64,000 bases of DNA from Blepharisma japonicum (taxonomy: Eukaryota; Ciliophora; Heterotrichea; Heterotrichida; Blepharismidae): assembly GCA_949751835.1 (NCBI GenBank), contig CATKHK010000078.1:1-64000 (forward strand). Reading direction: 5' to 3'. Position numbers and translations under genes: made by a program. Below, piece after piece: positions 13,877 through 36,229 of this stretch. The notes below the pieces were generated by a model. It worked only from the letters and a program-made list of their open reading frames with translations, was not told the DNA's origin and made no database searches. Each line of letters begins with the position of its first letter. Position 1 is the first letter of the stretch.

Positions 13877-16465
13877 TTAATCATTTTCCACTTTTATACT
13901 AGGATTGCTCAAATTTATACTTTGGGTATGATTTTTGAAATCATCTCATAAATTTGGAGACACAAGACTCTGAATTAAGATAGAATCGATTTTTTCTGAG
14001 CAATTATCAAGGGGACACTTCATAGCTTTTTCTATAGATTTTTCCTTGATATTATTCTCTAAAAACTGTCGTAATTCTTCTTCACAAAAATAATGATTGC
14101 AAGGAAGCCCTTTCAAGGTTCTCGCAGGAAAAATGCTTCTACAAATTCTACATTGTTTTAAAGGCTCAACTGCTGGATAAGTAACTGCATCTTTAAATTG
14201 AGAGTTGGAAGCGTTTGGGAATCTATCGTTTTTCGCTTCTATACTGAGACTATTCAAATTTATACTTTGGGTATGAGTTTTGAAATCGTCTCATAAACTT
14301 GGAGACACAAGACTTTGAATTAAGATAGAATCGATTTTTTCTGGGCAATTATCAAGGGGACATCTCATAGCTCTTTCTATAGATTTTTCCTTGATATTAT
14401 TCTCTAAAAACTGTCGTAATTCTTCTTCACAAAAATAATGATTGCAAGGAAGCCCTTTCAAGGTTCTCGTAGGGAAAATGCTACTACAAATTCCACATTG
14501 TTTAAAAGGATCAATTGCTGGATTAATATCTGCATCTTTAAAATGAGAGTCTTTATTAAGAAAATTGCTGGAAACGCTTGGGAATATATCATTTTTGATT
14601 TCTATATTGAGACTATTCAAATTTATACTTTGGGTATGATTAATGAAATCGTCTCATAAATTTGGAGACACAAGACTCTGAATTATGATAGAATCGATTT
14701 TTTCTGGGCAATTATCAAGGGGACATCTCATAGCTCTTTCTATAGTTTTTTCCTTGATATTATTCTCTAAAAACTGTCGTAAATCTTCTTCACAAAAATA
14801 ATGATTGCAAGGAAGCCCTTTTAATATCCTCGCATGAGAAATGCTTCCACAAATTCCACATTGTTTTAAAGGCTCAACTGCTGGATAAGTAACTGCATCT
14901 TTAAATTGAGAGTCTTTATTAAGAAAATAGTTGGAATATGACCCCTGCCCCTTTCTTGGCTGTTCGGAAGCTTCTCTGGCTGCTTTGCGATTTTTTCATA
15001 TTTTTACCAAGATAACAATCAAAGCAATTATGATTAGAATGAAGACTGCTGAAACAGAAAGTGCAATAGCAAGTATTGTCTTCGAAGAATTACCTGAACT
15101 ACCAGAAGAGTCATCATTGTTAGAATTTGTACCAACTGTGGAAGACCCTGAGCCTGTTGAATTTGGGACACTTGAACCATTGGACCCTGAATTGGTAGAG
15201 TTAGAGCCATTTCCTGATGATCCTGAGCCATTTCCTGATGATCCTGAGCCACTTCCTGGATTTGTGCTATTAGTGCCTGAAGTAGAATTTGTTCCAGAAG
15301 ACCCACTACCAGAACCGTTTGAATTTGTAAAATTAATGTATCTGATCTGAGATGTAAGTCCCACAGTAGTAAAGCCGATTTGCATGTTTTCCATGTCATA
15401 AACCGTATAAAATCTTCTAAGAAAAGCATCGCCCAACACTCATGTATTGGTTATAGTTGAATAATCAAATGTTGTAAGGCAGTATAAAGTACTTTTCCAC
15501 AAGTATCCTGCTGGCTTGATTGTAAATTCTACTCCACTCATTTGGATTATAAAATTAGGATAATTAGCATCGCAATCGCAATAGAGTGTCCCAAAAATGT
15601 CATTGCAGCTATAATTATCGTGTAAATGCTTCAAAATATCATTAATAACATCTTTTGGCCCTAAAATATAGCTCGTTCCAGAGCTAATTATTGCCTTATT
15701 TCCGCTCGTATAATTAACTCCGTCAAAAGTAGCATTATCGAAATCTATTTGTCAAAATCCATTTGAATTTGTTGCTTTAATATATGTAAAATTGCTTTCT
15801 GCTGAATATTTATTTAAATCATGACCATCAATAATAAGAATTGACTCACCATAATTTGGCAAGTCTGAAGAGCTGTTGTCATCGTTAAGATAAAACGAAA
15901 AAATCATGTGACTAATGTTACCCTGGTTATATAAAATACTCAAAATAGAGGGATTTTCATCAGCTGAAGTATGAAAACCTAAGCAAAATATGCCATCTGG
16001 CTTAATATTGTCTATGTTAGACTCCTTGTCCATTAAAAATATTCCTTGATTTTCTGCAACAATTCCTCCTATTTCGACTGAGTCTTTTCCTATATATCCC
16101 TCTAAAACATTAAGAGTTGAATATTTATTTCCGCTTTGAAAGGTTGATGAACTATTGGAATCAAATTTTTTAGTTGAGTCACGACATTGGGAACAATTTT
16201 TCGCATCTATCAAAATCCAAGAGTACCTTAGGTTTACTATCGCTGTAAAATTTTGTGGAGGGGTTCCAACTCCAAGCTGAATGTAATATTGATTCTAAAT
16301 AAAGACTACATTATCATAATTTGTCATTGTTTCTGAATATGCAAGACTTCTGAATGAAAAGGGATGAGTTCTATTGAAAGAATTTGCTGGAGGTTTCAAT
16401 TCTCGATGCAAAGGGATGCGAATTAAGGCTTCTGTTAAAGAAAGGAGAATAAATAAAAACATCAT
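13877..16465 (-). CDS. Gene A: pseudo-pepsin ectodomain, TM helix, three cytoplasmic RING-like repeats
   Basis: 857 residues after removing one 15-nt intron (16295-16309) and reading UGA as Trp. In order: signal peptide (FLFILLSLTEA); short pro-like segment; A1 (pepsin-fold) domain about residues 55-375 with the hub and C-terminal signature VLGDAFLRRFYTVYDM; a Gly/Ser/Asn-rich stalk (15090-15330); a TM helix (ILAIALSVSAVFILIIIALI, about 458-483); then three tandem RING-like units about 116 residues apart. Both catalytic Asp-Thr-Gly sites are lost: the first is replaced by the NLRYSW region, the second reads ISSGTS. Each RING unit has CxxC, CNHYFC and CPLDNC, but the Cys after CNHYFC is Glu. 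Expected topology puts the RINGs in the cytosol. An inactive-protease receptor linked to ubiquitin transfer is inference. Confidence 0.9.
13945..14930 (-). repeat. Three tandem ~345-363 bp repeats encoding the RING-like units of gene A
   Basis: The DNA of the three units is almost the same base for base; for example the block starting ctcataaatttggagac recurs at about 13945, 14290 and 14653. The 18-base difference in spacing comes from six codons (NFLNKD) present in two units and missing in the last. Such similarity implies recent duplication or ongoing gene conversion. Confidence 0.9.
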
Positions 16466-19400
16466 TGATTATTTATTTTTTATTGTGTATAAGTTTATTC
16501 ACTTACTTCAAAATTTAAAAGTATTTTCTTAAGGTTATAAATATTTGGTTTTTGGAGGATGAAAAATGCTAAAAATGCTAAAATATGTTTGCTAATCAAT
16601 AAACAAAATTAAATATTAATAATTATACTTGGGAAATATTTTGTATGTCATTGTATATCTAAAGTGAATAAACTATAAGAAATAGGCAACTTAAGTCGCT
16701 AATGCCATTTGTTTCTACACTTATCTAAAAAGCATAGACACTTTTGAGCAAGATTTTCTAACTTACCTAGCATACATGAATGATGCAAAATCATTGGAAA
16801 TGCCTTTCTTAGTTAAGATTATTAAATGACCTATGAGATCTTTATCTTACTTTCTTGCCCTTGTAGCCATAAGTATTTTCTTTAAAGAGACTCGAGCGAG
16901 GTCATCTCTGAAAAGGTTATGATGGAAAAATGGATTTCTGAATGCTTTAAAAAGTCGTTAAGCAATAAAACTCATCCTCAGAGGTTATCAAATCGGTAGG
17001 ATAGGCATCTCTAGTGCATTTTCTCTTTCTCGAAATCCTCCTCCCGCTGGTGCACACAAGTGAAAAATTAAGAGGATACGCTGGCTTGCTAATTCCATTC
17101 TGAGATTTTCATAAATGTATAGTAGAATGCAGAAGAGTTTTATGGATTTTTTATTCAAAATTGAACAACTAATTTAATACAAAGGCCATCTTGCAAAGAA
17201 CTTAAATTCTGAATAAACGGAGGTAAATTAAGAAAGCTTTGCGAGCTTTACATAAATTTTTCATAACCATTTTTTAATTTCCTGATTTTTATTTTTATTT
17301 TAAACATTTTTAAGCACAATTTAAAATTGTAGGATGTTTGTAGGGCACTGTCCTACAACGGACTTTAAAAAGGAGAATTCACCTTCTCCTGATGATCTAA
17401 GACCTTAGATACAACTCACAGGTACCACTTCATGGCGGGTTTGAATGAGAGTCCATCTTGGGCTGACGAAGTTTAAGCTTTAACACTCGATATCGTTCCG
17501 ATCCGTTGCTCAGAGCCTAACACTGCGCTGATAAAGGCATCAAGAGGAGATAATAATCATCGAGGCTTTGAAGTGCAAACTTATATAAAGCGATCCAGCC
17601 TTCACTTCACTGGACTATAAGAATAAAAGAGAAAATATTTGAAAATATAAAAGGTGCTATATTGCTTCAATTTTTAAAAACTAACGTAATCTTATTCTTA
17701 ATTCTTAATCTTAACACTTTTTTGGAGCTTTTAACCAAAAATATATTTAATTCATTGATAAAAAAGTTAAATTATATAAACTATAAGAAGGATCAGCTAT
17801 TTAAGAAATTTACATTTTAATTACTCTTGCTCATTTAATAACCTTGAAATCGGCCATATTGGATGTGATTTTCCCTTCCATTGCCCAAGAATTACTAATC
17901 AACATACGTCCAATAAAATCAGATAATAAATATTTGAGGTGTCTACCATGCTTATTCAATCAACTAAAATCAGTAGGTTTTATTAAATTTTTGAGATGAT
18001 CAAATTAAGAACTGATTAGGCATTAACTAATCATTATGACTAATTGAAGGACGTTAAATAAAAGATTTATATATAAATTTTTATTTATCTTGATCTATGC
18101 TTCTCTAGACTCAAACTATTTTATCCAAAGAGTTCTTGAGAAAGAGGGGGAGACAAAGTTTTGCTTAATCTTTTGCATTCAATACTTTTTTTGAGAATTG
18201 CTGATCCCGAATTTCTCCATACTTGCTAAAAAAATGCTTAGTCTGGTCTGCAATAATTATTTGCGGGTGATTTGTTGTAAGCGCATGAGAAGCAAAAATT
18301 GCCTTATATTTTAGGCCCATACATTGCAAATGATCACAATTATGATCTTATATATAAGGAAGCCTTCACCTAGGACACTGAGTAACCTATATTTTCATGA
18401 TTCAAATTCTAAGTCTTTATATAATTCTTGAGCTCTCAGGCATCAGGGCCAAAAAAGTAGTCTTACCCCGTATATGGGTTTTGCCGTTCTAAAATGGATT
18501 TTTTCCTGCTATAAAACCTGGCTGCATTTACTGTTGAATTTCAAGGCAAAGCGATGAATCAGAATCAACTCAAGCCAAATAGAGCAAATAGTGTGCATCT
18601 CCCAAACTTGCAAAATCTCTAATGGAACATAGCATCCATATACCCACTCGCAATAATGATAGAATAGGATCCTAATATTTGGAGTATGGGAACCTTACAA
18701 AAAGTCAAGAAGCAGCTGAACCGCCATACGATGTCGTCAGGTAAGCTGGATCATTCTGAGCAGATTTTAAATATTAATCCTAATATAAAGCATAAAAATT
18801 TATAGTAGGAAATATCTATTTCCAGCAATTATTATCTTAAAATGTTTAAATAAGCTCCTAATTCTCTTGCTCCCTTATTATAACAATTTCTTAATATCTA
18901 TCAACCTCATGGCAGTAGATTCTAAAATCATTATAGCAATTTATGGCTATTACTGAAGATACCGTAGGAAGGGATCTTCAATTACTTAATTTTCTAATTA
19001 AAATACTTTGTTAATAAAAGCAAAATGGTAACTGACTGATAAATTCGCATAATAAAAATATCATGCTAATGGCTGTGCAATACAGAATTGGCAGTAGCTA
19101 AATAAAACTATTTTAAATATTAAGTTGTCTTTATTTTTATAATAATTAAATTTTTAAAATGCATTAACTCTCCGAAAATTTCACATTTATAGCTATTTTA
19201 AATTCAAAAGAAATTATTTGCCACTAAAACACTAATCCCAAAACGGTAAGTATAGATTAATAAAAAATTTTGCAGCAAAGTGCTTTCGTTTTCATGTATT
19301 AGGTAAACAAGGTCACGTATGACTTATTTTTTAGAACCTTTTTTGAGTTGTGAAAATGAGTTATTAAATCTCTTATGTTTTAATACATTATCAGCTTTAA

Positions 19401-19504
19401 TAGATCATTTTAAAATTTGATTGCCAGTATTTATTTTTATTTTATTTCATATTAATGCATGATCTAATGATCTACATAATTGCCTACTAGAAATCCCTAT
19501 CTTG
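16466..19504. other. 3-kb intergenic region, no intact gene
   Basis: No open frame of length on either strand apart from short chance ones. A minus-strand coding-like island lies at about 18150-18330 (AIFASHALTTNHPQIIIADQTK by translation, then KYGEIRDQQFS), broken on both sides, so a further decayed gene is likely. A GC-richer patch with hairpins at 17329-17640 is listed on its own. Confidence 0.4.
17329..17640. ncRNA. GC-richer island with three consecutive hairpins, candidate structured RNA
   Basis: Base composition jumps above the AT-rich surroundings. Three perfect stem-loops follow one another: TTGTAGG/CCTACAA (17338-17358), AGGAGAA/TTCTCCT (17371-17390) and ATCTAA/TTAGAT (17395-17410). 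No ORF spans it and it is not a tRNA. It could be a non-coding RNA or a decayed insertion. Strand is unknown. Confidence 0.3.
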
Positions 19505-22500
19505 TTATAAAAAGTTACCGTGCTGAAGCTTGATCATAACTTTTTTATCCAAATCAAACTTAAAGTAGTAGCGCAGACCTTCAAAATTACCTCCAATATA
19601 CACCATACTTTTATTATTTACGCAGCAAACCTGATCAGTATGGCCAAACCTAGCTATTGAGTTGGCAATATGTTTTCAAGTAGCTTCATCTCCAACTTCG
19701 CTTTCGTATATTTTCCCTTCACATTCAATTAAATACAATCTCTCGACACTGATCAATAATTTTATTTTATTTTCTGAAAAATCAAATGGAACTCTAGCAA
19801 AATTGTTCAGATCAAGTGAATATCGCAAAATATTTTTATTAAAATATCCAGAAATCAAAATGAAATTCTTAAACTCTATGCAGCTGCATCTGCAATCAGC
19901 TTGAGGCATTGGGCTTAATTGAGTTCATTTATTTTCATCCAAATTAAATTTTTGGGATAGAGTTAAAGGGTGCTTTTTTATTCCTCCAAAACAGTAAACG
20001 TTTCTGTTAAGGTAAATAGCTGAAGATTTAATGCAAGGGGTTCCAGATGGAATAACTCGAATTTCACAATTTTTATTAACAATTAATGACGTTCCTGAAG
20101 ATGATTTATTCCCAAAACAGAAGAGTCCACCTTCTGGAAGTTTAGCTATGGATGTATTGCAATCTAATGATTCTGGCGTTTCTAAGACTTTTACTTCTTC
20201 TTTTTCTATATCAGTATTATAAGCAATTAACTTGGTTTTGTTGCCCTTATAGCTATAAGTAAGATAAATTGATGATTTTTGGCTATAAGAATTGAAAAAG
20301 CTTTGAAAAGTAGGGCCTGGTTGAGAATAAACAATAGCATCCTTTTGCTCATTTAACTGAATATTTGGATTGAAGCTTCGCTCTGAACTTTGGTCATTTG
20401 TGAAAATCTCAGGCTTTTTATAAGTTGATTCTCAAGGGTTAAATCTAATCTGAGGTTGAATTTCTGGGGCTTTGTTCTTGAAATTATACTTTTCTTCATT
20501 TTTTTCTGTTTTCATAGGTAAATTTGGTGATTCACTTTTTTCAACTCGTCGAAGAAAGTTGCTATTAGGAACTTCAGGCTTCTCAAGATTTTTTTCCCTT
20601 CTATCTTCTATATAAGTGTTTAGATTTAAATGATACCTATATTTTCCAGATGGTAATTCAAGACCTTTCTTATTTTCACATACTTCTGGGCTTGGCAAAT
20701 TATTTTTTATTCTATAAAGAATTGGTGGTGGACTAATATAGTTTTCATAAGGCTGAGAGTTAGCAGGCTTGTTATTTTCATTTGTTGCAGGATTTATCCT
20801 GTAATCATGCTCTTTTTCTGGCTTATTCCATTTCTCTGAAATTGTATAAATCATTGGGATTGATTGAACTTGATAATTTTTTGATATTTCTTTATTTTCA
20901 CTCTTTTCTTCTGGTTTTATGGCATTATTGTGAGCTTGACTTAAGTCTTTATTAGAATCATGTCTATTAATAGAATCAGATGAAAAAGATCTGAAACTTC
21001 TTTGATTAGGTTCCATAATGTATTTATCTTGTTCAATGGCAGCTTTTCTGATTGGAATTTCATAATTTTGAGATATCTTTTGGATTTTTATTGATTCTTC
21101 TTGATTATCTTGGGTCATTGGAAGAATGGAAGCAGATTTTTCTTTTCTAAGCGATGGGTAATTTGGTTTGAAATCTTGGTTTTGATGAACTGGATTTTCG
21201 AAGTTTTGAACTATTTTAGGAGAAATTTTATATTGAGATTGTGGATTCTCTATTTCAGGCTCTGGGCGAGCTCAAAAGCTTACTTTGGTATCCCTTTCAG
21301 GGGTTTGTCTTAAGTCTTCCAAATAAGCATTTTTAACAGGTGAATCTAAAGGAAAGATCTTTTTCTCCTCTGATGGAAACGATCTTCTGTCAATTTGCTC
21401 AAATTTTTGGTGCATCATCTCATCTTTAATTTTAGTTTGAATTTTTGGACTGCTTATTTTAGGAGTTTCAAGCCGTTGAGGAATCTCTTGAATTTCAGTT
21501 TTTGGTTTTTTCTTTTTAGGATGTTTAGAAGAAGGAATTTTTAATTTTTCAGGTTTCCTTCAGCCTTCCTGAGAAATCAATTCTTGATCTGTCTTTATTT
21601 GTTTTTCCGCTAAAGAGTAACTGTTTTGATCTTTCGGATTATGCATAATTTCTCTAATCTCCTTTTCATCGTTTTCAGCAGGTGGTTGAGGTTGGGGATT
21701 AGCAGCGGGTCTCTTTTTTTTACTCGGTGAATGCATGTTCTTTATGCTCTGATCATTCGGTTTTGCTACTGATTCTTTACGCTCTTTATTTCTTTTTTCT
21801 TTTTTTAAAGGTATATCCTTATCTATAGATTTATGCTCGATCTCTTGATTTTCATTATCCTTTCTTCAATTTTCGAGAACTCTGTTGTATTCTTCTATAT
21901 TTTCTGTTATTACAGATATATAATTCTTTGCTTCTTTTATCTCATGAGATCCAGCCTTAAGTGTTTTTTTGTAGTCTTTTAAATTTTCCAATTTAGCTAT
22001 TAAGTTTCTAATTGTTATCAAAACCCAAGTTTCTTGGCAATCTCCGTTATCATGCCAGTTCTCATTGCATTCTGTACAAAATGTATGCCCACATTTTTTA
22101 CATTTTGCTTTTCTTGACTCATAAAAATTAAACTTTTCACTACAATTAGGACATTTTATAATCCTGAAATCACTTGTGATTAAAAAGAAGTTTAGTTTAT
22201 CCCATTTGCTTTTAGGCAAAATATCCAGCAGAAAATTTAACTTAATTTCTTTTTTGCAACTATTAAGAGGGCATCTCAAAGCTTTGGCAAATAAATTTTC
22301 CTTGATGCATGACTGGATGTTTTTTCGTAAATCTTTTTTGCAAAAAATATGACCACACTGAAGAGTTTTTAATAGGGAAATGGAAAATCTTTTATTGCAA
22401 ATTTTGCATTCTTCTTTCGAAGAGTCATTATCTTCACGACCGCAGCTATGATTACGCTTTTTCCATATGCATGCAAATATAAACCCAATAATAATGATAA

Positions 22501-23719
22501 GCAATGGTATAGGTATTGCAATAATTATGGCCAGCTTTCAATTTTCCATAGAATTACTTTTACCAGAATCGTCAGCTTGAGATCCTGAGCCTACTTCAAT
22601 CTGTGATTGAGCTCCTATCGTAGCAAAGCCGATTTTCTTGTTTTCCATATCATAAAGAGTATAAAACCTTCTAAGAAATGCATCGCCCAGAATTCATGTA
22701 TCAGTAATAGTTGAGTAGCCAAATATTAAGGAGCAACCTGTGTTTAATTTTTCTAAATACCCAGCAGACTTAATTCTGAACCTAGTTCCGTTTATTTGAA
22801 TTACTATATCAGGATAATTTGCATCGCATTTGCAAATCAGCATACTGTTACTGTAACAGCTAGCATTACTCTGCAACTGTTGCAAAATTCCATCAATAAC
22901 TTCTTTTGGCCCAAGGATTCCCTTTTCTCCTGGACTAATTATTGCTTTATTACCGCCTTTAAATGTTGTGACACCTAAGATTACTTTATCGAAGCTCATT
23001 TCCCAATATTTACCTGATTTTACTACACTTATATAAGTAAACTCTTTTTCTACTGCATATTTATAAATATCATGACCATCAATAATAAGCATTGATTGGC
23101 CTTTATCAGGCAAGTCAGAAATAGTGTTTATATCATTTAAATAAAGCGAAAAAACCATATTCTCTATGCCATTTTGGTCATGTAATGTTTTTAAAATTGA
23201 GACATCTTGCTCTTGAGAAAAGCCTAGCCCTAATATTCCATCTGCCCCAAGATTGTTCATTCCATACTCGCTGTCGATTAAAAACACTCCTTGAGAATCA
23301 ACAGAGAGAGTTCCTATTCCGACTGTGTCTCTTCCAGAATTTCCCTGCATTTTCTCAACAGCATCCATGTTTCATTCATTATTGTCTTTTTTGAAAGTTG
23401 TAGATTGTGATGGGTCAAATTTATTAGTTCATTTTCGGCACTGTGAACATTTTATTTGATCTATAAAAATTCAAGAGGTTTCCAGAGATAATGATAAAGA
23501 AAAATTTTGGTAAGGAGTTCCAATCCCAACCTCAACATAATATTGACTCTAAATAAAAATCACATTGTGTAAGTTTATCATAGTGACTGATGATGAAAGT
23601 CCTCTAAGTGAAAATGGAGGAGATGGGTTAGGCAAAACTCTTAAGGGCTGTGATTTTTCAAGTAATGGTATCCGTATTTCGGCTTTTGCCAAAAAAAAGA
23701 AGATGAATAGCAGAATCAT
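19505..23719 (-). CDS. Gene B: pseudo-pepsin receptor with RING-IBR, disordered region and kelch tail
   Basis: 1,399 residues in one frame after removing a 15-nt intron (23549-23563); at least ten UGA are Trp. Order: signal peptide (LLFIFFFLAKA); A1-fold domain about 50-375 ending in WILGDAFLRRFYTLYDMENK; TM helix about 391-415; RING1-like domain about 430-490 (CKIC, CGHIFC, CPLNSC; Asp replaces the Cys after CGHIFC); IBR zinc domain about 510-552 (CPNC, CKKC, FCTEC, WHDNGDC); about 530 residues of charged, Pro-rich disorder; kelch repeats about 1120-1395 ([31 protein letters not shown]). Catalytic Asp motifs read LETSW and ISPGEKG, so proteolysis is not expected. There is no RING2 with its catalytic Cys, so it is not a full RBR ligase. 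I know no described protein with this order. TAA stop at 19505-19507. Confidence 0.92.
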
Positions 23720-23969
23720 TGATTAATTATATTATTAGAAGTTTAATATAAAGATTTATTGTAAGTAAATAAATTGATCTAGTATGTTAGCTTCTAACGA
23801 CAATCATTCTATAATTTTTTATATTGCTTTGAAATATTTTTTAAACAGTTTCTGCATGTGGAAAATTCTTCTACGTATGGAAAAAAAACTTTTCTTGTAT
23901 GAAGAGGGTTCCATAAATAGTGCAACTCTCTATAAGATTACTAAGTAAATTCTATTAAATTTTTTTATA

Positions 23970-24230
23970 ATACTCTCGATTAAATCATAATTTAACACAG
24001 AGTATAACTAGCGAGCACACCCAAAGACTTAAAACTACTAGCGCAGAAATATAAGAGGATAAACTAGATTTCATTTATCATCTGAGCTATTAGAAGAGCC
24101 CTTTGAACTAAGAGAATCAGAGATGCTGATTTGAGATATATATCCCACAGTAACAAAGCTAATTTTCTTTTTTTATATCATAAAGTGTATAAAATCTCCT
24201 GAGATAAAAGCTATCGGATAGATAAATATC
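23970..24230 (-). pseudogene. Duplicated 3' end of a gene C-like receptor
   Basis: This block repeats 24612-24845, the 3' end of gene C, about 640 bases away, with scattered substitutions and small indels (for example cacagagtataactagcgag against the gene C counterpart). It covers the C-terminal pepsin signature, stalk and TM region, then ends. There is no upstream coding sequence in frame, so it is a partial tandem duplication or the remnant of a lost neighbour. Confidence 0.75.
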
Positions 24231-24555
24231 GCATAAGCTCAATTTCTTAGAGCGCGTAATTGTTGTAATATACAATCATAAATATTTTTCGATAGTGATG
24301 CCAAATCTTGGAGAGAAAATTTCAATATTAATTTATTTATCCTCATGCTAACGGAAATAATATGAATCCTGAGTCTTTCTCAAAATTTTATAAGCTTCAA
24401 TAATTATATTTCTATTACTCATTTTTTTGCAATTATGAGGGATTTATGGCTAGAATAAAATTCCTGCTTTTGTGCCTATATATATTTATATTTTTAACTA
24501 TTTCATATTAATATTTATTTTTAACTAATATTCTTATTCTTCTCCATTTCTATTA

Positions 24556-25896
24556 TTATCTATCACTATCACTTATTTCTATTTCTACATCTGATTCTTC
24601 CTCTTTTTTATAATACCCACGATTAAATCATAGTTTAATACAGAGTATAACTACCGAACACCCCCAAAGACTTAAAACTACTAGCGCAGAAATAATAAGA
24701 GGATTAGCTAGATTTCATTTGACATCTGAGCTATTAGAAGAGCCTTTTGAACTAGAACCAGAGATGCTGATTTGAGATATATATCCCACGGTAGCAAAGC
24801 CGATTTTCTTGTTTTTCATATCATAAAGTGTATAAAATCTCCTAAGAAAAGAGTTGCCTAAAATTCATGTATTAGAAATTGTTGAGTAGCCCAAGATTGG
24901 AGAGCAATCTTTATTTAATTTTTTCAAATATCCAGCTGACTTAATTTTAAGGTCGTATCCATCTATTTTGAATACTAAATCAGGATAATTTGCATTGCAG
25001 TCACAAATCAATATATTATTGCTATCGATATTACAGCTGCTGTTACTCCGCAACTGCTGTAAAATTCCATCTATATCATCTTTTGGCCCAAGGATTCCCT
25101 TTTCTCCTGGAGTGATTCTTGCTTTATTACCATTTGTAAAGGTTGCAGCATCTAAATTTACTTCATCGAGGCTCATTTCCCAATATTTATCGTTATTTAT
25201 TGTACTTATATAAGTAAAATCATTTTCTGCTGCATATTTAGAAATATCATGGCCATCAATAATAAGCATTGATTGGCCTTTATCAGGCAAGTCATAAAAT
25301 GAGCTGATATCATTTAAATAAAGGGAAAAAATCATATTCTCTATATAATTTTGGTCATATAAATTTTTTAAAATCGAGACAGCTTCGCCTTCAGAAAAGC
25401 CTAGCCCTAAAATCCCATCTGCAAGAAGATTATCCATTCCACTCTCGCTGTAAATTAAAAATACCTCTTGAGAATCAGCAGAGAGAGTTCCTATTCTGAC
25501 TGTATCTTTTCCAGTATTCCCTTGTATTTTGCCATCTGTATCGGTGTTCATTTCATTATTGGTCTTTTTGAAAGTTGCAGATAATGCTGAGTCAAATTTA
25601 TTAGTCCATTTTCGGCACAGCGAGCATTTTTTTTGATCTATAAAAATTTGCGAGGTTTCTAGGGATAATGATAAAGAAAAGTTTTGTGGAGGAGTTCCAA
25701 TGCTAACCTTAATATAATATTGACTCTAAATAAAGCTCACATTTTGTGAATTTGTCACAAGAGATGGAGATAAAAGTCCTCTGAATGAAAATGAGTCAAG
25801 CGAGTTAGGTAAAGCTGTTAAGGACTCTGATTTTTCATGCAATGGCAATAGAATCTCAGCATCTACAGAGATAACGAAGATAAACAAAAGAATCAT
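24556..25896 (-). CDS. Gene C: pseudo-pepsin membrane protein with short tail
   Basis: 441 residues after removing a 15-nt intron (25726-25740). Signal peptide (LLFIFVISVDA), short pro-like segment, A1-fold domain about 50-375 with DGILGLGF and the C-terminal WILGNSFLRRFYTLYDM, a short Ser-rich stalk, TM helix about 395-417 (LIISALVVLSLWGCSVVIL) and a 25-residue acidic tail. The DTG sites are replaced by LETSQ and ITPGEKG, so the protein should be catalytically dead. Closest relative in the window is the ectodomain of gene B. It lacks any RING or kelch part, making it the minimal family member. Start and intron position match the paralogues; TAA stop at 24556-24558. Confidence 0.92.
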
Positions 25897-27004
25897 TGAT
25901 TAATTATATTATTTGATACTCTATCATAAAGACTTATATGCGTCAATAAACTGATCTGGTAGTTAACTGCTAAAGACAAATTATCTATAATTTTATAAAA
26001 TTTTATTAAGGAAATTTCTATTGAAATACTTTGTGCAATAAAAAATAAACTGTTATTTGATTACCATAACGATAAATCTATTTAGTATGAATGTTTCAAA
26101 TACAGAGATGCTATAGCATTATATAGTCTTAATATTTGAGTAATAGAATATGCGAATTTGATTCCTGCCTTGATTTTTTTCTATAAAGGAATGCGAGCAC
26201 TAGCATCTTTAAAATGAATATTTAGATTCTTTCTATAAATTTTATAATTAAAAAGCTAAAAACCATAATAAGCATTAATGTTAAAGATGTTTAATTTACT
26301 TAATCTAGCTGTTCTGAAATATCTTCCTTTATTAAAGTGCTTTATTCGAATTATAAAAGGAAATTTTTTTAAAACAAGTTCATGTGTAGAAAGTTTAATT
26401 TATGATCTATTGGATTAATGAATATTGCGTAAACTAATTTCTTATAATGAATAAATTTGCTTATATATGTAATTAGATATTCTTCTACAGCGATGCTATA
26501 TCTTAAACAGAAAATTTTCAAAGCTTACTAAATTTCATTTTGGAATAAGCTGAGTTAAGTATAAAAGGCCATAAGTGAATATCCAATCACAGACTATTGG
26601 AGCAGACCCAGCTAATTTAAGGATTAGGTCAATAGATAGAGCAAATTTTTGTAGATGCTCAGTTAGTCCATCTGGCATGGACAAAAAAGCCTTAGGGAGA
26701 GAAATAGAACTTCCTAGTTAGGTAGGCATATTCAAGCCCAAACTCTTACTTGAAAGTCACCAGAAGCTGTATTCAGCTTCTAGTTAGAATTAAGATCGAA
26801 TTTCCGCAGCTGGATATTATAAATAATGAAGTAAAGGCAACTATTATAGCAAACAAAACTTGACTGATTTACACTTAGAATGCTATTATTACCTATTTGA
26901 GCCCAGCTAAAAATATTGTTTTTCAGCACTTTCAAAAATCCTTCTCCCTCTCTCAAATAATTAAACTCTCTTATCCCCTCTAGTCATAGACTTATAATTA
27001 GCAT
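25897..27004. other. Intergenic region, no gene seen
   Basis: AT-rich DNA between gene C's start and a kelch remnant. No open frame on either strand beyond chance length. The slightly GC-richer stretch at 26560-26900 gives no recognisable translation. Confidence 0.4.
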
Positions 27005-27215
27005 TTAACAATTAATTTCTTGATAGTTGCTTTGAGTTATGCTATCCATTATCGGTTTTTGGAGAGCGCTTGCTATAAGAATCAAGCCTCTATATAAAGC
27101 ATTGCAGCTAAAGTTAGTATTCAAACCTTGAGGGAGCTGAGCAATGCTTTCTCACTCATTGTGCTTAAAATCATAACTTTCAGCCAAGTTATTTGTCCTC
27201 CTATTAAATAGATAA
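27005..27215 (-). pseudogene. Kelch-repeat remnant
   Basis: With UGA as Trp, a minus-strand frame ending at TAA 27005 reads NLAESYDFKHNEWESIAQLP, a clear kelch blade end, then continues for about 40 residues. Upstream, out of frame, is an IYL..GG-like stretch that would complete the blade. It differs from the module in genes B, D and E and has no intact N-terminal part, so it is a fragment of another kelch gene. Confidence 0.5.
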
Positions 27216-27786
27216 ATTATTATCGGATCAACATGGTAATCACTTTTGATTTTAGAAGCTGTTTAACGTTTTCATCTTTATCAATAGTAAAAGCTAAGCC
27301 TGAATTAATGCTAGCATTGCAGCAATAAAATAATTATAATCAGGAAGTATACACTTGTAGCGTATCCGTGAATTGATTCTTGAGTTGGAAGAGTCAAATT
27401 TAATAAATCATAAGAAAAGTTCTTTTTTAAATGAAGTTCTTCATTTTACATTTTTGCTCTCTAGCATTTTTAACTCTAAACTGAGCTGATAGCTCGTTTA
27501 AAGCCCTTAATAATTGATTTCAAACCTAGATTACTACAATGTTTAATAATCTATTTCATTTAAATAATAAGGAAATCTGATCCGATTCCTAATTACTTCA
27601 GGACTAAAGTGAAAATAGAAGCTCTTTAGGATAATTTTTATTTATTTATAGGTTATATTATTAATAGATCATAAAGAAGCAAGAAAATAAAATGGAAAAT
27701 GGCATATCTAATAAAAGATTGCATAAAAAATATTAAAAAATGAATGAAGAAAAAGAAATTCAATTAAATTTAAGAATTAGTAGTCA

Positions 27787-30055
27787 TTAATCCTTAATTT
27801 TATTTATCGTTTTTTGACTTAAGCTAAACTTATAATACCCATCAATATTTCCTTTACAGCCAATATATATTGCTTCCTTATTATAAGAGCAATAAACTTG
27901 TGAAGGGTCATCAAAGAATTCATTAATGTCTGCTATTTTGACCCAAGATATATCATCGTTTTTGCTTTCATATACCTTTCCTTTATTATAGCACTCAATT
28001 AATAATAAACCGCCAGCATTGATCAGGATTTTTCTCACCCCTTCTTCTAAATCGATGCCATTTATTGGCTCGAAGCTGTTATTTATTATTGAATATCTCA
28101 AAATGTTCTGATTTTCACGACCGGCAATCAAAATATTATTATTAAACTCCAAACAGTGGCATTCCCAATCAGGTTGAGGCAATGGTTCTAACTTGTACCA
28201 TCTTTTTCTTTTCAAATCAAATCTCTCTGATAAATTTAAATAATTTCGGGCATTTTTTCCTCCAAAGCAGTATACATTATTATCGAAATAAGTAGCTGAT
28301 GAGCTACTGCAAGGTGTTCCAGATCGTACCTTCTCGACTTGATAAAGTTTATTGATTATAAATGTAATTCCAGATGCAGGAGTATTTCCAAAACAGAAAA
28401 AATTACTATTTGGAAGATAAGTAATGCAAGTAGAGCTCTGCAGGTTTTCTGGAGTTTTTTCTAAAACAATCTCGTTTTCAGTTTGATTTTCGGTGTCATA
28501 AACAACCAAAGAAGTTCTACCATAGAAATTATTCTCTCTAAGAAAATAAAGAGAACTGACTCGATGATAAGCGTTGATAAATTCTTGACGATCTATATTG
28601 TCTGATGGATTATCAGCATTATTTGCATTTTCTTGTAATAATGATAAAGTTCTTCTATATTCATTCTCAGTTTCTGGGTTATTCACTCTGTTTAAAATCG
28701 CAGCTGTTCTTTCTTTTATGCTCTGAGGGTCTATATTATTTTCAGAAATCGAATTATTAAGACTATTGGAAGGAATTCTATGATAAATTGGTCTAGTATC
28801 GCCTATCTCATAATAATTGATAGGTTTAATTTTCTTATAGTGAAGTCAACATTTTTTTCACTTATTCTTGATCTGTTCCCAGCGATATTTCAGAATTAAA
28901 CCTAATGCTATATACCATAAAATCGATACCGAAGCAAAATATTTACTAGAAAATGAACTGCTGCTGCTGTTTTGGCACAAGCTAGTGCTGTTCGAGCCCG
29001 ATGTGCAATTTGTTGTTCCTGGATTGGGGTTTGGTACAGGATTAGTATTATTTGTTGGGGTTGGGCAATTGCTAGAGCCTGATGTGCAATTTGTTGTTCC
29101 TGGGCCTGGATTTGGTGCAGGATCAGTATTTGAACCACATAATGATGCCCCTTTGCTTAATTGGGATTGTGTGCCAACAGTTGCAAAGCCTACTTTCTTG
29201 TTTTGCATGTCATAAAGTGTATAAAACCTTCTGAGAAAAGCGTCGCCTAAAATCCATGTATTGGTAATTGTTGAATAGTCAAACTTTGGGTAGCAATATT
29301 CATCAGTTTTTTGCAAATACCCAGCCGATTTTATTCTAAATTTAACTCCACTTAATTGAAATATAAGGTCAGGGTATTTTTCATTGCAATTGCAATTTAA
29401 TTTCCATAAACTATCAGCTGAGCAAGTATAATTAGTTTCTAAGAGCTTTAAAATTCCGCTGATGACATTTTTTGGTCCTAATATATTACTTGTTCCAGGA
29501 CTTATTCTTGCTTTATACCCTCCTGCATAAATTTTTTGGTCAAAAATAATACAATCAGAGTCCAATTCCCAAAACCCATCAGAATTTGCTGCATTTAAAT
29601 ATGTAAACTCTGTCTCTGCTGCATATTTAGAAATATCATAGCCATCAATAATAAGCATTGATTCGCCATTATTTGGTAAGTCAGAAAAGCTGCTTGAGTC
29701 ACTTAAATAAAGTGAAAAAATCAAATTATTAATATCACGTTGAGCGTATCAAGTACTCAAAATAGAGCTAGCTCCATTTTTGGCATCACTAAAACCGAGC
29801 CCAAATATCCCGTCTGGCTTTAGATCATCAGTTCCATATTCATCATCGACTAAAACAATGCCTTGAGAATTCGCAGTCAGTTCTCCTATACGAACTGTTT
29901 CGTTTCCAGTATTACCTTTCATCTGGCCAACAGTATCTATTGTCAAATAGTTATTTCCACTTTTAAACGTTGAAGAATGATCTGAATCGAATTTACTAGC
30001 CCAACTACGGCACGATCCACAGTTTTTTGAATCTATCAAAATTCAAGAGGTCCTT
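27787..30055 (-). CDS. Gene D: pseudo-pepsin receptor with kelch tail, main frame (5' end severed)
   Basis: A continuous frame of about 756 codons with UGA as Trp. It starts in the ectodomain at the position of the first active-site motif (RTSWILIDSKNC) and continues through DGIFGLGF, a second site reading ISPGTS instead of an Asp motif, and WILGDAFLRRFYTLYDM. Then come a Pro/Asn/Thr-rich stalk with repeated NCTSG sequons, a TM helix (YFASVSILWYIALGLIL), a cytoplasmic linker of about 90 residues and a kelch module (NSNFFCFG, ATYFDNNVYCFGG, KRWYKLEPLPQPDWEC). The signal-peptide exon lies beyond a 0.64-kb insertion, so the intact receptor probably cannot be made unless the insertion is spliced or excised. 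The paralogue is gene E. Confidence 0.85.
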
Positions 30056-30698
30056 CCTCCCTCCCTGAGAGTAAGCAAATTTTTCTTTTTATGTAGGGTT
30101 TAAAAAATTTCTAAATCGAAAAATTGCAACAATTATGTAATTTATGATTTTTATGCTGTAAAATTCCGTATGTTTAAAGTTCAATAGAATTAAAAAATAT
30201 AGAATATTAACACACTGAAAATAATTCTACTAACTTGCCAGTGTCCTTTTTTCTTTCTGGAAAAACGTTTAATTTTTGAGAGAAGCAGGATAATCATAAG
30301 ATTTGCCAGCAAGTAGCATTACACATCATTAATACTGATAACGCTTAAAGTTAACTATAAATCTACCAACATCATAGCTTTAATTATTTTTAAGCTTATC
30401 GGATCCATAAGCCTCTGGGTCGGCCTAATTTGCTAGTAAAAAAGCCGCACAAAGGTGTGTTTCTAATCATTCTGCTGCCATAGGTGACTCGTAACGGGCT
30501 ACTTCTGATTTCCTTGATTCTGTATGAAGACTAAAGGCTCCTTTAGAAGCCATAAGACAGGCCTTTCTGATTCCCTAAGCACCTCTCTTAGCCAGTCTTC
30601 ACCAGATAGAATTCTCATGTAAAATTAAATCCCAAAGTGAGCGTGCTGATCAATGATAGCGCCTTAAAATGATTTTTGCTCTCTCTTAGAAGGGCGAG
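30056..30698. mobile_element. 0.64-kb insertion in gene D, MITE- or IES-like
   Basis: Gene E reads through ggtccttagggag without a break; in gene D the same point is split by about 643 bases. TT flanks both sides, consistent with a 2-bp target duplication. The ends form imperfect inverted repeats (CTCCCTCCCTGAGAGTAAGC against the complement of the right end, CTCGCCCTTCTAAGAGAGAGC). No ORF lies inside, and the middle is GC-richer than its surroundings. It is either a small non-autonomous transposon or an internal eliminated sequence kept in the somatic chromosome. Confidence 0.7.
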
Positions 30699-30700
30699 TT

Positions 30701-30936
30701 AGGGAGACTAACAAAGAAAACTTTTGGGGAGGAGTTCCAATCTCAACGTCGACATAATATTGATTCTAAATAAAATCTACATTTTCAATGTTCTTCACAG
30801 TTGCTGACGATGAAAGTCCTCTGAGCAGTCAAGATGTTTTTGAATCATGAAGATTTGATGATGATCTTAATTTTTCCTTCAAAGGAAGATGAATTAAGGC
30901 ATCTACACAATAAATGAGGAGGAATTGAAATAGCAT
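30701..30936 (-). pseudogene. Severed 5' exons of gene D
   Basis: From ATG 30936 the frame encodes a signal peptide (MLFQFLLIYCVDA), the pro-like segment and, after a 15-nt intron (30766-30780), the first ectodomain strand (NQYYVDVEIGTPPQKFSLLV). It then runs into the insertion and stops within about 15 codons. It matches 35995-36229 of gene E closely. Confidence 0.85.
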
Positions 30937-31664
30937 TTATTGATTTAAATTATTATAGGCTAGCAAGTATAAATAAATTGTAAACCTTCTACAAAAACAT
31001 TTATCCCAAAAATCAAAAGGAAAACTAAAAATAAAGATTATCGCTATAGATAATTAATATTTTATGATTTTCTTTCGTTTTGATCATTCTTTATCTATAG
31101 AAGACATAAATAGAGATTTACAAATTTTCTATTTATGAAATGGAAATAGAGAGAATTTTGTAATTGGCAGTCAAGAAAAGAAAATGTGGGAATTTAACTT
31201 GATAAGACTGATTCACAAATCTTTTCCTTTCAAATGCTAAAGAAATTTATTAGTCTGCTACAGAATCGCCTAGAGCTTTTTAAGTTCGCTATAATTCAAG
31301 AATTCCATGGATACGAATAGAGAAAATAATCTTGGAAGATTATAATCTCAATGTTTACTCAATGTTCTTCTTAAATATAAGTTGCTTTATAGTTTTCCAT
31401 AGCTGCTAATGATGTCCTCTGGCTAAAGGAAAGCTTGAAATAGAAGTATTTCCTTGGAATTTGGTTTTTCATGAGAATGTGACTTCTAAAGAAGCAGGAA
31501 TAAAGAATAAATAATTTGATTGTTTAATCTTTAATTATGAGAAATGCATTATAAAGATAATTAGCAGCAAAAATGATAATTTTAAAACTATTGAATATTT
31601 TTATCATTATATAAGTATTGGTTCATTGAGCTGCTGTTGATTCAAGAAGCGAAACTATTGTGAT
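30937..31664. other. Duplicated 5' flank of gene D, no gene
   Basis: AT-rich sequence that corresponds to the upstream flank of gene E (36230-36980). It probably includes the promoter, but no motif can be assigned. No coding signal. Confidence 0.5.
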
Positions 31665-33490
31665 TGCTTATTCCAATTCTTTAATATTCCTGCTACATTT
31701 GATGCCTTGAAAAATCTCAAACAGGAATAATTCACTAGATAAGACCCTTGGGAATCTAAGTCTACTCTTAACTATAAAAAGAAAAAAATGTTCTTCTTGA
31801 AAAACAGATAAAAGAAAAATACCAAAATGTCCAAGATCAACTTCACTGTCTGTAAAACCAAAATACCCTTGAAAATCCATAATCCAAGACACTATTTCTC
31901 GAGAAATTATTCATGCAAGAAAGCGAACCATGCCAAATTCATCTTAAAACTCCTTTTATAATTGCCTTTTGACATATTCATTGACTTTTATCCCTCAGCT
32001 TATTATCTGATGCATAGTGCCTGCAATTTCATTACAACTATCGTTAGACAATAAATTATTAAAAGGACGATTATATTCATCTATTAGAACAAAAGCTTTT
32101 CTTTTGTAAAATCGATAAAGCACATAGCTTAGATATTGGATCGATGATATAAGATCTGAATTCGGATCATCGTTGAAGAACTCTTGAAATCGTTTATATT
32201 ATTCTCTAATTGCATGTCATAATTTTTTCTAGGCGCCTTTTTTAATGCATCAAGAGCATATTCGTGCTTCCTGTATGCCAAACTAATTGAAATACCAAAA
32301 CTTTCATGGATTACTTCATAGATGTTTTTAACATTTTCGCATCCCACTTCTTGAAATTTGATAAAATCGCAGGAAATTTCTTTGCATACTTATTTACATA
32401 ATACCCATTTTTTTCAGTTGGAGTCACTCGTATATTAGGATTTGAATTAATTGAGAGATCCTTGATAATATTTTTCTTTTCATTATGAACAAAACCTTAT
32501 TTATTGAGCAGTATTTTCATACCCCTCATTACTCAAAAATGTCTTTATTCATCCTTTAAGAACTATCAGAATTTTTGTTATTATAAGAGGGATTAAATTT
32601 TATATTAAAAGTGACTTTCCCAGATTTTAAAAAATCACAAAAATCTGAAATCTATTTATAAGAATTTAATTTGTTTAAATTTAATTGTAGTTTCAATTAA
32701 TTAAAGCCTTTCTCATCTCTTCTCCTTCTTGCAAAAAAATCTTCCAGACTTTTTTTCATTTTAAAAATTTCAATATTTGTCTAAAATATAATGTTTAAAG
32801 GAAAACCCCTATAATTTTCACTTGCTAAAATATTTAGAAATCACAATTAAAATGGTATTCAAAAAATTAGTCTTTTAATTTTGGTTTAGCAAGTGAAAAT
32901 TATTTCACTTTTAAATTTTCCAAATTTTTGTTCCGGGCCTGATTTTTTATTCCCATCTAACTTTTCTTTCGCTGCTTCTAACATCACTTGTCACCTTTAT
33001 TTGTCTTAAACAATTCTTTTACTTTTCCATTTTCAGTGCTGTTTTTGAATAGTATTAATGAGTATAGTAAGCTATCTCCAATGTTATTGCTCTCTCTCAA
33101 GGGGTGGGAGTTTAGCATATCCATATTTAGGCTTTTGTCCCATCCTCTAGATCTAGTAATCATAATAGCTTCTGTTTCTATCATCTAAAACCTTTTTTAA
33201 TAAGCAGTCTTATCAACAAAAACATTTTACTATTTATGGACTCTTCAAAAAAATTTCTGGATTTATAGAATTTTCAATTATCTTCTATTTTAAGCATTGA
33301 AAAGTCTATATTACTGCATGAAAGTGGCTTTTTCACTGCTGGATTTGAAATTTGATTTGAGGTATTCTCAATATTAGTTCAAAATTCTAATCGGTCTGTA
33401 ATCATACTTCTTTCTTCATTGGGCTATCAACTTTTAAATTGGTTTCAGATATCGGATTGATTAGTTCGTGCTCGTTTAATGCGGCTATAA
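31665..33490 (-). pseudogene. Decayed AAA-ATPase-like gene (RPRxWGKS type), copy 1
   Basis: Reading 5' to 3' on the minus strand in shifting frames: DRLEFWTNIENTSNQ near 33390; a degenerate Walker A (ITRSRGWDKSLNMDML) near 33130; KNGYYVNKYAKKFPAI near 32400; YEVIHESFGISISLAY near 32290; a Walker-B-like KAFVLIDEYNRPFNN near 32070; and FGFTDSEVDL near 31845. This order is that of the predicted AAA-ATPase-like family (PF09820 type, often joined to a PD-(D/E)XK nuclease in bacteria and protists). Many TAA/TAG and frameshifts break it. Copy 2 lies at 39.7-41.3 kb. Confidence 0.65.
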
Positions 33491-33756
33491 GATTGAGCTA
33501 TATAATTAAAAATTGTTATTTATTAATATTCCCGATTCTTAATTACTTCTTGATTCTTCATGCAAAGTAAAAATTAGCAATTCTTATAGGATAATTTTAT
33601 ATTCTTTAATGACTATAATATTTAATAAATCATGAAGAAGCCAGAAGATATTATTACTATTTAGCTCTTAAAATATAAAATTGGATATATAATAAAAGAT
33701 TGCATAAAAAATATTGGAAAATGAATGGAGAAAAAAAATTCATTTAATTTTAAGAA

Positions 33757-36229
33757 TTAGTATTCATTAATCCTTATCATTGTTTTTTGGTCTAAGCTAA
33801 ACTTATAATAGCCATCATGATCTCCTCTGCAGCCAATATATATTGCTTCCTTATTATAAGAGCAATAAACTTGTGAAGGATAATCGAAGAATTCATTAAT
33901 GTCTGCTATTTTGACCCAAGATATATCATCGTTTTTGCTTTCATATATCTTTCCTTTATTATAGCACTCAATTAATAATAAACCGCCAGCATTGATCAGG
34001 ATTTTTCTCACCCCTCCTTCAAAATCGATGCCATTTATTGGCTCGAAGCTGTTATTTATTATTGAATATCTCAAAATGTTCTGATTTTCACGACCGGCAA
34101 TCAAAATATTATTATTAAACTCCAAACAGTGACATTCCCAATCAGGTTGGGGCAATGGTTTTAACTTGTACCATCTTTCTCTTTTCAAATCAAATCTCTC
34201 TGATAAAGTTAACTTATTTTGGCCATTTTTTCCTCCAAAGCAGTACACATTATTATTGAAATAAGTAGCTGATGAGCTACTGCAAGGTGTTCCAGATCGC
34301 AAACTTTCGACTTGATGATCTTTATGAATTATAAATGTAATTCCAGATGCAGGATAATTTCCAAAACAGAATAAATTACTATCTGGAATATAAGTAATGC
34401 AAGTATGGTTCTGCAGGTTTTCTGGAATGTTTTCTAAAACTATTTCTTTTTCTGTTTGATTTTCGGTGTTATAAACAATCAAAGAAGTTCTATCATAGAA
34501 ATTACTGTCTAAGAAAATAAAGTGAACTGACACGATAGTAAGCATTCATAAATTCGCTGCGATCTCAATCATCAGAATTATTAATTCCATTTTTGGGTCA
34601 TATTGAAAGAGTTTTTCTGTATTCATCCTCAGTTTCTGGATTATTCACTCTGTTTAAAATCCTAGTTATTAGAGAAGTAACAGTTTGAGTTGGGCCTATG
34701 ACAAAAGCTGGGTTAACAACCGTAGGCGTGACAGGTGTCTTATTACGGCTATTTCAATATTTCATGATCTTTTCCCATCTCAAAGAAATAAAAATTGCAA
34801 GTCCTGCTATTATTACGAATCCAACAATTGCTATCAAAGCACTTAATCAACCAGGAAATGAACTACTGCTGCCCTGGCACGAGTTAGTGCTGTTCGAGCT
34901 CGATGTGCAATTTGTTGTCCATGGGTTGGGATTTGGTGCAGGATTAGTAGAATTTGTTGGGCTCGGACAATTGCTAGAGCCTGATGTGCAATTTGTTGTT
35001 CCTGGACTTGGGTTTGGACAATTGCTAGAGCCTGATGTGCAATTTGTTGTTCCTGGGCTTGGGTTTGGTGCAGGATCAGTAGAACTTGTTGTGCTTATTT
35101 GGGATTGTGTACCAACAGTGGCAAATCCAACTCTCTTGTTTGGCATGTCATAAAGTGTATAAAACCTTCTGAGAAAAGCGTCGCCTATAATTCATGTATT
35201 GGCAGTTGTTGAATAGTCAAATGTTGGGTAGCAATATGTATCAGCTTTTTGCAAATACCCAGCCGATTTTATTCTAAATTTAACTCCACTTAATTGAAAT
35301 ATAAAGTCAGGGTATTTTTCATTGCAATTGCAATTTAGTTTCCCTAAACCATTAGCTGAGCAAGCATAATTAGCTTCTAAGAGCCTTAAAATTTCACTGA
35401 TGACATTTTGTGGTCCTAATATGTAACTTGTTCCAGGACTTATTCTTGCTTTATACCCTCCTGCAAAAATTTTTTGGCCAAAAATAACACACTCAGAGTC
35501 CAATTCCCAAAACCCATCAGAATTTGCTGCATTTAAATATGTAAACTCTGTCTCTGCTGCATATTTAGAAATATCATAGCCATCAATAATAAGCATTGAT
35601 TCGCCATTATTTGGTAAGTCAGAAAAGCTGCTTGAGTCATTTAAATAAAGCGAAAAAATCAAATTTTTAATATCACGTTGAGCGTATAATGTGCTCAAGA
35701 TAGAGCTAGCTCCATTTTTGGCAGCACTAAAACCAAGCCCAAATATCCCATCTGGCTTGAGATCATCAGTTCCATATTCATCATCGACTAAAACAATGCC
35801 TTGAGAATTCGCAGTCAGTTCTCCTATGCGAACTGTTTCGTTTCCAGTATTACCTTTCATCCGGCCAACAGTATCTATTGTCAAATAGTTATTTCCACTT
35901 TTAAATGTTGAAGAATGATCTGAATCGAATTTACTAGCCCAACTACGGCACGATTCACAGCTTTTTGAATCTATCAAAATCCATGAGGTCCTTAGGGAGA
36001 CTAACAAAGAAAACTTTTGGGGAGGAGTTCCAATCTCAGCGTCGACATAATATTGATTCTAAATAAAATCTACATTTTCAATGTTCGTCACCTTTGCTGA
36101 CGATGAAAGGCCTCTAAGCAATCAAGAGGATTTTGAATCATGAAGGTTTGATGATGATCTTAATTTTTCCTTCAAAGGAAGATAAATTAAGGCATCTACA
36201 CAATAAATGAGGAGGAAGTGAAATAGCAT
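33757..36229 (-). CDS. Gene E: pseudo-pepsin receptor with kelch tail, frameshifted
   Basis: From ATG 36229, with a 15-nt intron at 36059-36073 and UGA as Trp: signal peptide (MLFHFLLIYCVDA), pro-like segment, A1-fold ectodomain (NQYYVDAEIGTPPQ; first site RTSWILID; second site ISPGTSYILGP; both Asp missing), Pro/Asn/Thr stalk with repeated NCTSG sequons, TM helix (LIAIVGFVIIAGLAIFI) and cytoplasmic linker. At 34502-34512 it lacks two bases relative to gene D, so this frame ends at TAA 34502 after 570 residues. The kelch module (33757-34545; CFGNYPASG, YFNNNVYCFGG, LKPLPQPDWEC) stays open in another frame. Either a recent pseudogene, a sequencing error, or a natural truncation giving a kelch-less receptor. 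Confidence 0.85.
34890..35095 (-). repeat. Stalk-encoding tandem repeats in gene E
   Basis: Units built on PNPSPGTTNCTSGSSNCP recur three times with small changes. Each carries an NCT or NCTS glycosylation-type sequon. Gene D has the same unit in a different copy number, so the stalk length varies between paralogues. Confidence 0.85.

Follow-up and report, generated by a model that had tools for sequence, protein, structure and literature searches.

Pepsin-family ectodomains without catalytic aspartates joined to RING, RBR or kelch tails in the ciliate Blepharisma japonicum

In this study, we analyzed a stretch of 64,000 nucleotides (nt) at the start of contig CATKHK010000078.1 (C78 below) of the ciliate Blepharisma japonicum (assembly GCA_949751835.1), called the window here, and in particular five of its genes, A-E, which lie in tandem on the minus strand and encode proteins with a pepsin-family (A1) ectodomain. 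We found that both catalytic Asp residues were replaced in all five genes, that these changes were common to a larger clade in the genome, and that several of the altered ectodomains have evolved under purifying selection. With a probability of roughly 0.55, the A-E family appears to consist of type I membrane pseudoproteases serving as receptors.

Five genes with altered A1 active sites near a telomere

First, homology to peptidase family A1 was examined with the Pfam Asp profile (PF00026) and by alignment with porcine pepsin. Each of A-E matched PF00026 (E 1.1e-40 to 1.9e-48), and the ectodomain of gene E aligned with pepsin over residues 2-315 of 321 (E 1.4e-33). The bilobal domain is thus present over its full length, in agreement with a preliminary description of the window that had proposed five tandem minus-strand genes with pepsin ectodomains. 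The first exon encodes 52 amino acids (aa) in each gene, with a hydrophobic start and then a propeptide-like xIPL stretch, and is followed by a 15-nt intron at the same place in all five. Signal peptides and transmembrane (TM) helices were judged by hydropathy (Kyte-Doolittle), which fits a type I layout (signal peptide, ectodomain, one TM helix, tail) in A, B, C and E, with a clear TM helix followed by basic residues; gene D is interrupted and its TM helix is weak. The stalk is rich in Ser, Thr, Asn, Gly and Pro and measures 70-94 aa in A, D and E and 21-23 aa in B and C. The tails differ: A has three RINGs, B has RING1, IBR, a long linker and kelch, C is short, D has kelch, and E has kelch if a 16-nt intron is spliced. 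No protease-associated (PA) family was found in the ectodomains by a Pfam scan at E 0.1, which places these proteins outside the PA-TM-RING family. Genes A, B and C are intact. The features are as follows (all coordinates refer to the window; letters in brackets give the residues at the first and second catalytic sites).

13877..16465, minus strand: gene A; exon 1 16465-16310 (signal peptide and propeptide-like RIPL stretch), 15-nt intron 16309-16295, exon 2 16294-13877; dead ectodomain (N at D32, S at D215), long stalk, TM helix at about 15061-15005
About 14866-14582, 14503-14303 and 14158-13952, minus strand: the three RINGs of the gene A tail
19505..23719, minus strand: gene B, 1399 aa in all; exon 1 23719-23564, 15-nt intron, exon 2 23548-19505; dead ectodomain (S/S), TM helix at about 22534-22478, RING1 and IBR 22411-22001, low-complexity linker, kelch at about 20284-19508
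18145..18386, minus strand: decayed RING2 relic (stops, frame changes) downstream of B, also present below the B copy (B') on contig C193
24556..25896, minus strand: gene C, 441 aa; exon 1 25896-25741, 15-nt intron, exon 2 25725-24556; dead ectodomain (S/T), TM helix at about 24699-24643, short tail
27787..30936, minus strand: gene D, interrupted; exon 1 30936-30781, 15-nt intron 30780-30766, 5' piece of exon 2 to about 30700, remainder at about 30055-27787; dead ectodomain (S/S), weak TM helix, kelch tail
30056..30700, no strand assigned: single-copy insertion of about 645 nt splitting the D ectodomain, boundaries within a few bases
33757..36229, minus strand: gene E; exon 1 36229-36074, 15-nt intron, exon 2 36058-34506, candidate 16-nt intron 34505-34490, kelch exon 34489-33757; dead ectodomain (S/S), TM helix at about 34837-34781

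Second, as the preliminary description had stated, neither catalytic Asp is kept in any copy. The alignment places Ser at Asp32 in B, C, D and E and Asn in A (the first site of D being read in its detached 5' piece), and Ser at Asp215 in A, B, D and E and Thr in C, and no Tyr aligned at flap position 75 in any of the five. A1 chemistry requires both Asp residues, and the features of an active A1 peptidase, namely two catalytic Asp in DTG or DSG motifs together with the flap Tyr75, are absent from A-E. We also considered the Glu of the motif LETSW as a conservative exchange of Asp32 and rejected this, since the Glu (or the Arg of LRTSW) aligned with Gly34 and the Ser with Asp32. In the 13-gene clade described below, Asp32 became Ser in 11 genes and Asn in one (in D it lies outside the model), Asp215 became Ser in 12 and Thr in one, and an aligned Tyr75 was absent from 13 of 13; in 39 ectodomains with both Asp, position 75 is Tyr in 34 and Phe in five. 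The profile E-values lie well under the threshold and the changes are common to this clade, so that the substitutions are not due to chance.

The five genes occupy the interval 14-36 kb from a telomere at the start of C78, and the window opens with CCCTAACA-type telomere repeats. UGA is read as Trp in its open frames, and introns in its genes are 15 nt long. All three of these features are also reported in the genome description of Blepharisma stoltei, whose genome is 41 Mb (PMC9942806).

History of the family and selection on its ectodomains

All family searches were made within this one genome (45.2 Mb, 224 contigs), in which PF00026 matched at 99 places. We built 70 gene models, of which 63 were aligned and counted; excluded were four fragments shorter than 280 aa, the short model C4_789190, and two models of uncertain alignment, C1_630690 and C114_119633. 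Both Asp residues were absent from 15 of the 63 ectodomains and one from nine, and both were present in 39 (including C11_91287, in which site 1 lies outside the model). The suggested profile search for A1 domains without catalytic Asp joined to RING or kelch was thereby productive in the one genome covered, with 15 of 63 ectodomains double-dead and one of these genes, C99, carrying an RBR (RING1-IBR-RING2) tail. Ten further genes, outside the 63, were read at the two catalytic sites alone: one had lost both Asp (C15, N/H), three the first (all of them C24 genes), and six kept both. Another six whole genes and several partial PF00026 matches stand outside all counts.

In the careful tree (60 rows; C74_157417, C2_855796 and C11_91287 were also left out), 13 of the 15 double-dead ectodomains formed one clade with support 99/94, and an inner group of eleven (A-E, C8, C99, C156, C189 and two from C193) had support 100/99; the corresponding SH-aLRT values in a quick tree were 96 and 100. 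In the model C193_10336 a 16-nt intron was chosen in the last exon, which may be mis-spliced, so the end of this protein is unsure. The remaining two double-dead genes, the C5 pair (S/G, Tyr75 kept), were placed beside single-dead C24 genes and represent a separate loss of catalysis. The branches nearest the 13-gene clade are single-dead C1 genes and then C59, one of the membrane-anchored relatives with both Asp intact. Because the forks joining the clade to the C1 genes and C59 are weak in the quick tree and the root was set at the midpoint, a stepwise order of the losses is suggestive. The dead genes tend to lie near contig ends: 11 of 16 were within 40 kb of one, as against 9 of the 45 remaining models, although some of those 45 are fragments and genes in a tandem array do not count as independent cases.

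A second array is carried by contig C193 (20 kb, with telomere repeats at its first base), where A', B' and C' follow the order of A-B-C and, in the longest blocks, are about 91-93% identical to them in DNA sequence, intergenic stretches included. Either a duplication or the divergence of two haplotypes may account for it.

To estimate constraint, we calculated the ratio of non-synonymous to synonymous substitution rates (dN/dS) by simple NG86 counts with bootstrap 95% intervals, the ratios being rough in older pairs, where dS is near 1. Purifying selection was clear on five pairs of dead ectodomains, with upper bounds below 1: C8/C99 (0.19, 0.12-0.27), the C21 pair (0.25, 0.18-0.34), E/C8 (0.30, 0.22-0.43), C/C' (0.34, 0.19-0.61) and D/E (0.47, 0.26-0.85). 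The C5 pair, with no Asp at either site, gave 0.16 (0.11-0.23), and control pairs with both Asp gave 0.11-0.29. The A1 fold, the altered motifs and retention under selection together characterize these proteins as A1 pseudoproteases, selection being clear for C, D/E, C8/C99, E/C8 and the C21 pair.

Ubiquitin-ligase-type and kelch tails

The most complete ubiquitin-ligase-type tail belongs to C99, outside the window. It matched ARIH2 (E 1.6e-13), ARIH1 (3.5e-12) and parkin (1.1e-5) in an alignment spanning RING1-IBR-RING2, and the GC-x-H motif of RING2 is kept (GC-E-H versus ARIH2), its Cys presumably being the catalytic one. Pfam gave two IBR matches, and RING1 was seen by alignment alone, with one zinc ligand altered. 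By this alignment, the C99 tail contains all parts of an RBR E3 ligase, that is, RING1-IBR-RING2 and the catalytic Cys of RING2. Outside the family, it is most similar to RBR proteins encoded on C97 (53% and 50%) and C90 (43% and 41%), and no pepsin domain was seen by eye in the stretches read of two of these C97/C90 proteins (L055, L056). A tandem run of RBR/IBR genes was also observed, from IBR matches, at 85-105 kb of contig C125.

The tails of A and B lack the in-frame RING2 of an RBR E3: A has three RING1-type RINGs and no RING2, and B has RING1 and IBR, with RING2 present merely as a relic outside the frame. C156 and C189 end after RING1 and half an IBR. The RING2 remains below B (18386-18145) and B' were recognized by tblastn (E 2e-8 and 7e-6, and 2e-5 for the former in the whole genome), which suggests that B once had an RBR tail. 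The simplest account of these sequences is a B ancestor with a complete RBR tail, into which a kelch-bearing segment was inserted ahead of RING2. Thus, the diversity of tails proposed in the preliminary description was confirmed, and a working ubiquitin ligase was not, since A has RING1 copies, B is without RING2, and a full RBR was found only in C99.

A search with the D kelch gave 147 scored genome matches out of 968 candidates, and one with the B kelch gave 147 scored of 1029. Since B ranks 140 of 147 in the list of D, and D and E are outside the 147 of B, these sequence matches are best explained if B and D/E took up their kelch modules independently from a large kelch family. One kelch motif exceeded the Pfam cut-off in D and one in the kelch open reading frame (ORF) of E, and none in B, whose kelch is below the Pfam cut-offs alone, yet homologous to the D kelch family. 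A neighboring plus-strand ORF at 8446..10473 combines a U-box, a coiled region and a kelch of the same family as the D and E tails. Of the 93 kelch matches listed on contigs 1-100, 22 start in the first 15 kb of their contig, which suggests enrichment of the kelch family near chromosome ends.

Possible function and relation to known systems

The preliminary description regarded these proteins as an undescribed receptor class, a view that is not borne out in that form, as in Phytophthora an inactive A1 surface receptor (PxAP9) has already been suggested and an A1 domain fused to a G-protein-coupled receptor (A1-GPCR; PxAP5) described (PMC3116508). PxAP9, a BACE-like A1 protein of clade 4, is membrane-bound and probably inactive, and the same source suggests that it is a surface receptor binding peptides without cutting them. 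It resembles the Blepharisma family in its membrane-bound A1 ectodomain thought inactive and its long intracellular part; however, its defect as stated there is Tyr75 to Phe, no Pfam domain is given for its tail, and it occurs as one gene per species (PMC3116508), whereas in Blepharisma both Asp are gone, copies are many, and the tails are RBR, RING or kelch. PxAP5 likewise joins an A1 domain to a putative signaling membrane module, but it has seven TM segments, and its description discusses self-processing by the A1 part rather than presenting it as dead (PMC3116508). Bla g 2 and the pregnancy-associated glycoproteins share the A1 fold, altered active-site motifs, Phe at 75, inactivity and postulated binding (PMC3116508; PMC9541408), but are described as not membrane-bound (PMC3116508) and, in these accounts, without a signaling tail.

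On the other hand, PA-TM-RING ligases and ZNRF3/RNF43 are described as having an extracellular or lumenal domain, one TM helix and a cytosolic ubiquitin-ligase module, with ligand control of a membrane ligase. Their ectodomain is protease-associated rather than pepsin-fold, and their ligase module is a classical RING rather than RBR. The PA-TM-RING ligases are the nearest working analogue. The C99 tail aligns with ARIH1, ARIH2 and parkin across RING1-IBR-RING2, whereas the other ligase-type tails read in Blepharisma are without RING2, and we know of no fusion of ARIH1, ARIH2 or parkin to a pepsin ectodomain. BACE1 and BACE2 have an A1 ectodomain, one TM helix and a cytosolic tail as here, but they are active and their tail is short. 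In one open-licence library of papers, our searches turned up no account of this ciliate family and none of a pepsin domain fused to RBR, RING or kelch. Thus, inactive A1 proteins and the idea of a membrane-bound A1 receptor are already known, and the RBR and kelch fusions were not found reported in that literature.

The sequences provide homology, residue losses, anchor, tails, shared history and purifying selection on several ectodomains, and from them we infer ligand binding, a ligand, a surface location and ubiquitin transfer. In the proposed mechanism, a membrane-anchored A1 protease would have lost its catalytic residues while the dead fold was kept, because its cleft or surface would bind, but not cut, a partner (probably a peptide or protein) located outside the cell or in a vacuole lumen, and an exchangeable tail would report this binding inward. 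One ancestor may have acquired an RBR ubiquitin-ligase tail, which is whole in C99; later copies would have trimmed it to RING1 or RING1-IBR (A, B, C156, C189), gained kelch modules, through which cytosolic partners or substrates may be selected (B, D/E), or been left with a short tail (C, C8). The tail might then act via ubiquitin, most credibly in C99, or via kelch-selected partners. A more specific version, in which these proteins would be a new class of transmembrane receptor whose non-catalytic pepsin fold senses peptides outside and is wired to an RBR ligase, while subtelomeric copies diversify by ligase trimming and kelch capture into a recognition family of variable output, is tentative. 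If the ectodomain does bind peptides and C99 does transfer ubiquitin, the protein would link a peptide sensor on one side of a membrane directly to an RBR ligase on the other. One genome holds an apparent series from anchored A1 proteins with both, one and no Asp to RBR-tailed dead forms and then to trimmed or kelch tails with a RING2 relic, and the conversion of a digestive enzyme into a receptor can thereby be tested one stage at a time.

The proteins may be located at the surface or in the digestive vacuole, and the strongest rival, which we consider possible although rather unlikely, is that they are sorting or regulatory receptors of the vacuole or phagosome. The ectodomain would then bind active sibling pepsins or their substrates in the endolysosomal lumen (or act as chaperone or decoy) and the tail would steer trafficking, as modeled by PA-TM-RING/RMR proteins and iRhom-type pseudoproteases. 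The many active A1 proteases of the genome, its 99 PF00026 matches, the signal peptide and xIPL stretch common to dead and intact A1 genes, and anchored intact relatives such as C59 are consistent with this; however, at the sequence level it is indistinguishable from a surface receptor.

Several findings weigh against a receptor role. As assembled, D does not form a single open gene, with exon 1 and the first strand cut off from the rest by about 645 nt; the signal peptide and single TM helix claimed for all copies hold by hydropathy in A, B, C and E, and in D the former is present only if the detached first exon is counted and the latter is weak (Kyte-Doolittle 1.53). The main frame of E stops at 34502, before the kelch, without the 16-nt intron. 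A' on C193 is frameshifted with a single RING, and no single intron mending its first frame change was found in the stretch searched. The claim that every copy keeps open frames therefore fails for D and A' and, in E, depends on the candidate intron. Among the ligase-type tails read, RING2 is present in C99 and absent from all others (A, B, C156, C189), and RING1 of C99, C156 and C189 is below the Pfam cut-off. The aligned receptor RINGs have Asp at one Cys zinc-ligand position (Glu in the second and third RINGs of A), at which the non-pepsin RBRs of C97 and C90 carry Cys; Asp is able to bind zinc in some RINGs. Finally, dN/dS was not distinguishable from 1 for the B/B' ectodomain (0.54, 0.28-1.23) and the first part of A/A' (0.51, 0.21-1.26), it was 1.06 (0.39-4.59) for the B/B' kelch, and, contrary to constraint, it was 3.29 (1.10-8.96) for the second part of A/A', where A' is frameshifted, and 2.77 (0.88-7.26) for the C/C' tail. 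The earlier proposal that the fold has been reused is supported by the constraint on several of the dead ectodomains.

These broken or doubtful copies, the RING2 relic, the weak or absent constraint in some recent pairs and the position of dead genes near contig ends would also be expected of a subtelomeric family in decay, whose copies drift, swap tails and die without a steady function. We regard this as improbable, because five ectodomain pairs are under purifying selection with upper bounds below 1, A, B and C are intact, and the 1399-aa frame is open in both B and B'. It is hardly credible that the ectodomain is still an enzyme, of a different type, that uses Ser or other residues for catalysis: Ser does recur at both sites in the clade, but neither Asp nor the flap Tyr is left, the first site of A is Asn and the second site of C is Thr.

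The extra segment in D (35% GC) may be either a genuine insertion or germline DNA that was retained. A repeat was rejected, as a genome search returned the insertion itself and no second copy, and no Rfam match was obtained. For E, loss of the kelch by a frameshift was our first reading, softened on finding one GT-AG 16-mer (34505-34490) that would restore the kelch frame. This candidate intron sits exactly where the paralogue D reads through and would absorb a 2-nt deletion. In the coding exons of the window, comparable 15/16-mers turn up at a frequency of about 0.67 per 160 nt, from which we estimate that chance alone would supply a fitting one in about one case in five (0.67/3).

Elsewhere in the window, Pfam matches between 37235 and 63611 indicated a WD40 protein, a SUMO-like protein, a DHHC palmitoyltransferase, a UvrD-type helicase, BCAS2 and a polycystin-like channel fragment, and a tRNA-Ile(AAT) lies at 53399-53473 on the minus strand. 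Seven U-box matches were found on the minus strand of C78 at 63.3-106 kb, the first of them inside the window (62574-63611).

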